From Deltaproteobacteria bacterium (GTDB lineage: Bacteria > Myxococcota > Myxococcia > Myxococcales > 40CM-4-68-19): DNA of 40,571 bases. The stretch is from the NCBI GenBank assembly GCA_025358085.1, contig JANYKT010000015.1, forward strand, positions 1 through 40,571, in the 5' to 3' direction. Shown here one piece after another: positions 23,687-24,869 of this stretch (its first letter is position 1; each line of letters begins with the position of its first letter). The translations under genes were made by a program, and so were the position numbers. Below the pieces are notes generated by a model. The model was not told the DNA's origin. It saw only the letters and a program-made list of their open reading frames with translations, and ran no database searches.

Positions 23687-24646
23687 TTAAGCAGCCTCCG
23701 CGCGGACCAGCGAGGCGCGCCGCGAGAGCTCGTCCACCAGTCGCGCGAACGGATCGAAGCCAACCACCCGCACCGGATCGGCGACGAAGTTCGAGAGGGC
23801 GTTGATATCGTAGACATAGACCTTGCCGTCGCGCTCATCGGTCAAGAGCTCGATGCCGCCCACGTCCAACTGGACCGCGCGGGCGATGCGCAACACGGCG
23901 TCCGCGACCGCAGGCGTCACCACCGCTGCCTCGACGCGCAAGCCGCTGCGGGGCGCATCGACCGGGCAGGCGCCGCGGACCAGCTCGCGGCCGTCGGCCG
24001 TCTGGCAGGCGTCGCCGGGGCAGAGATTGTATGAATTGACCTCCGGATAGACGCGAAGGCCATACAGGATCTTCCCGGCCAGAACCTCGACGCGGGTGAT
24101 GAAGCCCCCCTGGAGCGGCGCGCACTCCTGCACCAGCGCCGTATGGTCCACGCCGAGATCGAGAGTCGGAGCGGAAGCCAGCTGTTCCGCTGTCTCGAAG
24201 CGGGTAATGCCCGCGCCGCTGCCGCCGACGTTGGCTTTCACCAGCACCGGATATCGCAGCCCGGCCGCTGCCTCGACGGCCTGCGAGAGATGATTGATCA
24301 CGCGGCTCTTCGGGAACGCGATGCCGAGCTGCGAGAGCACGTCGAGCTGCAGTGCTTTGGAGGTCTCCATTTCGTAGGCGCGCGCGCCGTTCATCACCGG
24401 CACGCCGATGCGCTCCAGATGCCGCAGCCAGTGCAGCGTGTGGAAGGTCGTCTGTACGCGGCCGCGGAGATAAGCCGAAGGGCTCGCGCGATTGAAGACC
24501 AGCGAGTACGGCACGCTGGTCTCGTGAGGATCGTAGCGGTGGGCGGCGGCGTCAAGGCGGACATAAGGAATGCCGCGGAGGTCGAGTTCCTTGAAGAGCG
24601 GGCGAAACCAGTCCGGGTGCTCGTGCAGGATGGCGATGGGGTTCAT
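23687..24646 (-). CDS. ATP-grasp ligase (RimK-like)
   Basis: A 319-residue ATP-grasp protein. The N-terminal domain starts MNPIAILHEHPDWFRPL. ATP-grasp motifs follow: YPVLVKANVGGSGAGITRF for nucleotide and glycine-rich loop, and VYVYDINALSNF near the C-terminus with the Mg-binding Asp/Asn. This fold usually joins a carboxylate to an amine via acyl-phosphate, as in RimK-type amino-acid ligases. Its substrate is unknown. It is the first gene of the operon, preceded by a 5' leader with a peptide and terminator. ATG 24646 has a GAGG box upstream; the open frame further upstream reads through the terminator and is rejected. Co-transcription with an SfnG-like monooxygenase hints at handling a sulfur compound. 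Confidence 0.83.
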   Translation of the reverse strand: MNPIAILHEHPDWFRPLFKELDLRGIPYVRLDAAAHRYDPHETSVPYSLVFNRASPSAYLRGRVQTTFHTLHWLRHLERIGVPVMNGARAYEMETSKALQLDVLSQLGIAFPKSRVINHLSQAVEAAAGLRYPVLVKANVGGSGAGITRFETAEQLASAPTLDLGVDHTALVQECAPLQGGFITRVEVLAGKILYGLRVYPEVNSYNLCPGDACQTADGRELVRGACPVDAPRSGLRVEAAVVTPAVADAVLRIARAVQLDVGGIELLTDERDGKVYVYDINALSNFVADPVRVVGFDPFARLVDELSRRASLVRAEAA

Positions 24647-24680
24647 TGAAGCCTCAGGGTTGTTGCGGGGGGAAGACGGC

Positions 24681-24720
24681 GGGAAAACGAAACCCCGGTC
24701 CGCTCGTCGCGGGACCGGGG
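24681..24720 (-). terminator. Intrinsic terminator in the ATP-grasp operon leader (attenuator)
   Basis: On the minus strand, a perfect 9-bp stem CCCCGGTCC/GGACCGGGG (24720-24712 with 24701-24693) has a 10-base loop and is followed by TTTCGTTTTCCC. It lies between the leader peptide stop and the ATP-grasp start, 46 bases before the latter, so it would stop transcription before the operon. A competing pairing is described in the findings. Confidence 0.75.
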
Positions 24721-24749
24721 CAGGGACGCTGTGAACTTGGTCGCGGTTG

Positions 24750-24824
24750 CTAGCGGCGACAGCCCATGGCGGCACGGCCCGGCCCGGAGGCCAGACTCAT
24801 GCAGCAACACATGAACGTCGTCAT
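24750..24824 (-). CDS. Met/Cys-rich leader peptide of the ATP-grasp operon
   Basis: A 24-residue open frame on the minus strand, too short for most gene callers. It begins MTTFMCCCM and ends MGCRR, with four Met and four Cys residues overall. Three consecutive Cys codons (TGT TGC TGC) lie at 24801-24809. The start is only about 16 bases from the -10 box of a good promoter, and there is no clear Shine-Dalgarno, so translation may be near-leaderless. The stop codon at 24750 is 29 bases before a terminator hairpin. The layout matches amino-acid attenuation leaders, and polycysteine leaders are known upstream of sulfur genes in mycobacteria. It should sense charged tRNA-Cys, possibly also tRNA-Met. 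Confidence 0.72.
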   Translation of the reverse strand: MTTFMCCCMSLASGPGRAAMGCRR

Positions 24825-24840
24825 CGAAGTCAAGCTTGGA

Positions 24841-24869
24841 AGGTTAAGGACCGTCGGTCGCGAAGTCAA
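24841..24869 (-). promoter_or_regulatory. Promoter of the attenuated ATP-grasp operon
   Basis: On the minus strand, -35 TTGACT (24869-24864) and -10 TAACCT (24846-24841) are separated by 17 bases. Transcription would start about 24834, leaving roughly 10 bases before the leader peptide ATG. It is divergent from the mdh promoter, with about 50 bases between the two -35 boxes. Confidence 0.7.

Follow-up and report, generated by a model that had tools for sequence, protein, structure and literature searches.

Shell et al. (2015; PMC4633059) presented cysteine-directed attenuation as new to bacteria, and the leaderless polycysteine short ORFs of mycobacteria (Canestrari et al. 2020, as cited in PMC13236596 and PMC9094748) were proposed to attenuate their operon in response to cysteine. 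The cys leaders of mycobacteria and other actinobacteria are without conserved terminators (PMC1262725), and such terminator-less leaders make up the cases of cysteine-directed attenuation found in the literature. The trp, his, leu and ilv attenuators combine a leader peptide rich in regulatory codons, an antiterminator overlapping the peptide and an intrinsic terminator before the first gene. SAM-II riboswitches (i.e. SAM_alpha, RF00521) sense SAM directly and without translation. In Sinorhizobium meliloti, metA has a SAM-II riboswitch and, downstream of it, an additional terminator (PMC9373788).

A leader with features of several of these systems was examined in a window (i.e. the whole stretch of 40,571 nucleotides of contig JANYKT010000015.1 that was analysed). 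This leader is very probably a leader-peptide transcription attenuator that senses the charging of Cys-tRNA and, probably, of Met-tRNA. Like the mycobacterial polycysteine uORFs, as these are portrayed in PMC4633059 and PMC9094748, it belongs to a group of short, probably mostly leaderless uORFs with a Cys run before sulfur-related genes, but it differs from them in having an intrinsic terminator and a covarying antiterminator, in mixing Met codons into the run and in the operon and phyla concerned. The arrangement of the trp, his, leu and ilv attenuators is also shared, whereas the codons here are for Cys and Met, a 1:2 protector hairpin is only putative and the genes resemble those for sulfur scavenging rather than a known biosynthetic pathway. 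Strongly backed by the comparison of orthologs, a Cys/Met attenuator that works through a terminator would be a clean, testable system.

Leader frame, promoter and gene order in the window

The following features define the locus.

24974-25903, plus strand: divergent gene of the lactate/malate dehydrogenase family, bounding the other side of the intergenic region
24869-24864, minus strand: -35 box TTGACT, identified from sequence; similar TTGAC- boxes with 16-18 nt spacing lie 5' of many orthologous uORFs
24846-24841, minus strand: -10 box TAACCT, separated from the -35 box by 17 nt
24824-24750, minus strand: leader peptide uORF MTTFMCCCMSLASGPGRAAMGCRR, 24 codons, Cys/Met-rich; alternative start at an in-frame TTG (24833-24831)
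24812-24798, minus strand: putative sensing codons ATG TGT TGC TGC ATG (Met-Cys-Cys-Cys-Met), assigned on Cys/Met codon enrichment across orthologs
24646-23687, minus strand: ATP-grasp (RimK-like) gene, the first structural gene (PF08443; TIGR00768 below cut-off)
23686-22637, minus strand: gene for a luciferase-like FMNH2-dependent monooxygenase, SfnG/alkanesulfonate-monooxygenase-like (PF00296; TIGR04021 below cut-off)
22626-22099, minus strand: DUF1697 gene, downstream (PF08002)

The original prediction had placed a promoter, a 24-codon frame, a terminator and an ATP-grasp gene on the minus strand, and all four are present where it had put them. The intergenic region between the dehydrogenase-family gene and the ATP-grasp gene is 327 bases long. 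A frame of the form M..CCC..stop arose in one of 4000 dinucleotide shuffles of this region, and the Cys/Met score of the window was reached in 6 of 4000; the Cys codons themselves (i.e. TGT TGC TGC) lie at 24809-24801 on the minus strand. No relevant Rfam match was obtained in the window region, a radC match being far below cut-off, and no NCBIfam leader-peptide family was matched by either of two leader peptides tried. The stop codon of the ATP-grasp gene abuts the ATG of the monooxygenase gene (23687/23686, minus), a spacing from which co-transcription of these two genes is very likely.

The window promoter agrees with the consensus at 8 of 12 positions and is unlisted in a promoter scan with a threshold of 9/12. 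Promoters of the type TTGAC-, 16-18 nt, TANNNT occur just 5' of the uORF in many orthologs. Where a promoter could be recognised in the orthologous leaders, its -10 box mostly precedes the uORF ATG by 5-9 nt, so that the majority of these transcripts are probably leaderless (i.e. starting at the uORF start codon). In the window, the distance from the -10 box is 16 nt to the ATG and 7 nt to the in-frame TTG (24833), the latter matching the spacing at most orthologous uORF starts.

Conservation of the leader and exchange with SAM-II riboswitches

The ortholog set comprised about 119 operons from Gemmatimonadota and one from the window's own order. For the ATP-grasp protein, 119 strong matches were obtained in 395 Gemmatimonadota genomes, and the genomes searched within its own class held a single close relative with 68% identity (G036, locus L003). 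A protein tree placed the window and G036 copies inside the Gemmatimonadota diversity, both on long branches and with supports of 80 and 83, and this nesting suggests that the operon and leader moved together by horizontal transfer. More distant homologs with about 40% identity occur in the window's order (L038-L044); six of these seven loci keep the ATP-grasp/monooxygenase pair, and no Cys leader was found at any of the seven.

The Cys-rich frame and terminator of the original prediction are conserved both in the same-order relative L003, which has the frame MPFTSATCCCCLCRAACRAVSEGASVHA and a near-identical CCCCGGTCC..GGACCGGGG terminator, and in dozens of Gemmatimonadota orthologs (e.g. frames MMMCCCCMCQSAHGGAGACAS in L065, MTSAQTTCMCCCSCMCCLMCQPASEALGDRM in L118 and ..ACMCMCMCACLPRESG.. 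in L156). At least four Cys codons within ten were present in 34 of 116 ortholog upstream regions as compared to 0.8% of shuffles, and at least five in 18 of 116 as compared to 0.09%. A leader score of at least 8 was reached by 38 of the 66 loci without SAM-II (0.2% of shuffles), and about 19 of the 66 scored below 6. Next to the Cys run, 15.9% of codons were ATG, a figure in which some alternative start codons may be counted, as compared to 0.2% in other frames, and this enrichment suggests that Met is probably sensed alongside Cys. Conservation of the peptide among orthologs does not extend beyond the Cys/Met run. On these comparisons, the leader is real and conserved, and it looks functional. 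The orthologs support the cysteine-responsive attenuator originally predicted, with the qualifications that Met codons also belong to the signal and that the response to cysteine is a prediction from sequence.

A search for further poly-Cys leaders, using ATGTGYTGYTGY in the window's own genome and ATGTGYTGYTGYATGTG in the 395 Gemmatimonadota genomes, found none beyond the leaders of the ATP-grasp operon. There were eight copies of ATGTGYTGYTGY, one being the leader described here and seven falling in apparent coding genes, with several of the latter out of frame over Val-Leu-Leu stretches. Of the 14 matches to ATGTGYTGYTGYATGTG, four lie in leaders of the ATP-grasp/monooxygenase operon and ten read as coding sequence.

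Relatives that keep the operon without a Cys-rich frame or terminator had been named in the original prediction as evidence against it, and the relatives mostly spoke in its favour instead. Most frame-less orthologs carry a SAM-II riboswitch in place of the frame, or have another gene heading the operon; both SAM-II and a clear Cys/Met leader are missing from about 19 orthologs (L070, L071, L084, L089, L090, L091, L094, L112, L165 and others). A nucleotide HMM profile built from the SAM-II loci of this ortholog set detected the riboswitch upstream of the same operon in 33 non-redundant loci (E < 1e-14), i.e. about one-third of the orthologs, where it is followed by a terminator as the leader is. 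RF00521 exceeded the Rfam cut-off in L034 (3655-3726) and L037 (3685-3759), and several real-looking copies in Gemmatimonadota scored below the Rfam gathering cut-off. No RF00521 match was found in the window or its own genome, but the control genomes were likewise without a match, and a copy in the genome may have escaped the search. SAM-II copies in Gemmatimonadota were seen at L032-L036, L037 and L048-L054; Rfam's name for the aptamer refers to Alphaproteobacteria.

Most SAM-II-bearing loci are without a Cys leader. In four loci (L034, L037, L128 and L133), the riboswitch, the Cys leader and a terminator stand in series, whereas for S. meliloti metA no second sensor that includes the additional terminator was predictable (PMC9373788). 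A decayed tandem of this type may be present in L103; L075 was excluded from the tandems because its Cys frame lies 5' of the riboswitch. At least five changes among the states SAM-II, leader and both are required by the tree. Other SAM-II sites in the same genomes precede apparent metY (L050-L052) and metH (L054) genes, as assigned by eye from translated starts, and so independently tie the ATP-grasp/monooxygenase operon to sulfur amino acids. The exchange suggests that, on one and the same operon, evolution has swapped a sensor that works through translation for an RNA that binds its ligand.

On balance, these loci point to a previously undescribed dual Cys/Met-codon attenuator that occurs in two bacterial groups, is interchangeable with SAM-II and, where the two stand in tandem in some species, would act as a two-input gate (i.e. 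SAM plus Cys/Met-tRNA) on one uncharacterised, probably sulfur-scavenging operon. The original prediction knew of no attenuator described for this gene set, and none was found in a literature search that missed most subscription journals; the same search found no paper linking Gemmatimonadota to SAM-II or to a leader of the Cys/Met type. The Met component, the exchange with SAM-II and the position of the leader before an FMN reductase gene go beyond that prediction.

Terminator, antiterminator and alternative readings

Pairing between leader segments was examined across loci using a swap test, in which each locus's region was paired with the terminators of other loci and permuted 100,000 times. 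The segments in the window are as follows.

24792-24789, minus strand: segment 1, proposed protector arm GGCC, which the predicted fold pairs with the GGCC at 24784-24781; not favoured by the swap test
24785-24778, minus strand: segment 2, putative antiterminator GGGCCGGG within the uORF; position class kept in 40 of 40 leaders, and favoured by the swap test
24720-24712, minus strand: segment 3, terminator left arm CCCCGGTCC, from sequence and fold
24701-24693, minus strand: segment 4, terminator right arm GGACCGGGG, pairing with CCCCGGTCC in a 9-bp stem
24692-24681, minus strand: T-rich terminator tail TTTCGTTTTCCC, from sequence

The window terminator had a fold z of -5.1, and none of 150 dinucleotide shuffles of the 327-base intergenic region contained a terminator as stable. 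Taken alone, the window antiterminator was no better than its shuffles (p 0.51); that of L003 was weak (p 0.34 versus shuffles) and gave the worst interaction in a first, narrower swap test. Support for the antiterminator comes from the ortholog set and not from the window copy alone. Antiterminators paired better with their own terminators than with those of other loci, with a z of -5.75 for 40 loci (0 of 100,000 permutations) using a left-arm window that was picked after the narrower test, which omitted the loop and 5' extension, was known to give a z of only -3.0. Twenty-five dissimilar representatives gave a z of -4.67 (0 of 100,000 permutations), and control regions 5' of the uORF or 3' of the terminator gave values of about 0. 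A terminator was mapped in 40 leaders; in every one of them the antiterminator falls within the uORF, and its start is separated from the last Cys codon by a median of 11 nt (IQR 9-14). The ortholog set backs the originally predicted pairing of segment 2 with the terminator left arm. The predicted segment 1:2 hairpin fared differently: GGCC/GGCC pairing is present in the predicted fold of the window, but the cross-locus swap test gave no support, with a z of -1.5 while a negative control gave -3.2.

The leader, the terminator, the antiterminator geometry and the SAM-II exchange are seen in the sequences themselves, whereas ribosome stalling, an amino-acid response, read-through and the substrate of the operon are inferred. 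Transcription would begin with the short uORF itself or a few nucleotides 5' of it. With Cys and Met plentiful, the ribosome would traverse the uORF and sweep or cover segment 2, so that the 3:4 terminator could form and the operon would be off. With either in short supply, the ribosome would stall on the Cys/Met run; segment 2, which in a typical leader starts about 11 nt further on, would lie just outside the stalled ribosome and could pair with the left arm of the terminator ahead of synthesis of the right arm, allowing RNA polymerase to read through. In predicted pre-termination folds of the window, pairing of the left arm was 0.77 when the ribosome was placed on the Cys codons and 0.37 when it had reached the stop codon, and most loci gave similar contrasts for folds in which the right arm does not yet exist. 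The attenuator model depends on co-transcriptional timing, since at equilibrium a stalled ribosome leaves the terminator intact in most leaders.

Control of downstream translation or of Rho-dependent termination by the Cys uORF, with the intrinsic terminator constitutive or of minor importance, has been proposed for the mycobacterial polycysteine uORFs, which have no terminator. It would fit the probably mostly leaderless ortholog uORFs, which are as in mycobacteria (PMC4633059), and the terminator-less mycobacterial cys leaders (PMC1262725). This reading is nevertheless unlikely: of 43 leaders examined, 41 have a terminator between the uORF and the gene, the left arm of the terminator and the antiterminator covary, and where SAM-II elements take the place of the leader they too precede terminator-like stems with T-runs (e.g. 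in L033). Attenuation by Cys/Met-tRNA charging is preferred over a sensing of metal or redox state through Cys residues of the nascent chain. Cys clusters could bind metals and a redox influence has been raised for the mycobacterial uORFs (PMC4633059), but the co-enrichment of Met codons and the exchange with a SAM sensor, which points to sulfur amino acids, make such sensing highly improbable.

Slightly less credible again is a role of the short peptide as a RiPP precursor, or as a Cys-rich peptide with a function of its own, in either case modified by the ATP-grasp and monooxygenase enzymes encoded next to it. The peptide is rich in Cys, and ATP-grasp enzymes and short peptides co-occur in RiPP clusters; against this, there is no peptide conservation beyond the Cys/Met run, loci with a SAM-II riboswitch in its place are without the peptide, its overlap with the antiterminator holds in 40 of 40 leaders and its frame precedes the FMN reductase gene where the reductase comes first. 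Both the RiPP and the metal-sensing readings were rejected for the reasons given with each. A chance frame beside an unrelated terminator has a negligible probability, for although stems are common in GC-rich sequence and the window antiterminator is not significant by itself, conservation and covariation among the orthologs are far beyond shuffles.

Operon genes and probable function

A luciferase-like monooxygenase gene lies directly downstream of the ATP-grasp gene in 116 of 128 homologous loci. The best family match of the window monooxygenase (P0002) is TIGR04021 (SfnG), at 248 bits as compared to a curated cut-off of 383, and the protein is described here as a relative of the SfnG dimethylsulfone monooxygenase rather than as an assigned member; its solved relatives are 3rao, 8vw6 and 8t0u. 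The conserved part of the operon as originally predicted is this ATP-grasp/monooxygenase pair. The DUF1697 gene, which had been counted with it, is unsupported as a part, no DUF1697 relative being detected in the retrieved sequences of the other loci.

In 17 loci, the ATP-grasp gene comes after a gene for an FMN reductase, on a match to PF03358 slightly under cut-off with a query of 70 residues, and in about nine of these 17 the Cys leader stands in front of the reductase. Reductase, ATP-grasp and monooxygenase genes are likely to form one set. FMN-reductase-like genes were seen about 530 nt 5' of the ATP-grasp gene in L139, L141, L142, L145, L148, L149 and others. In L154 and L163, the monooxygenase gene is followed by a PALP/cysteine synthase-like third gene, some 2.1-3.0 kb past the ATP-grasp start. 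With these genes, the operon most likely recovers sulfur from organosulfur compounds, and the attenuator predicts a role in sulfur recovery for a widespread, uncharacterised ATP-grasp/luciferase-like monooxygenase pair. Downstream of the operon, the window carries a bacterial peptide N-glycanase-like gene (20342-22219, minus) with PNGaseA (PF12222) and PNGase_A_C domains.
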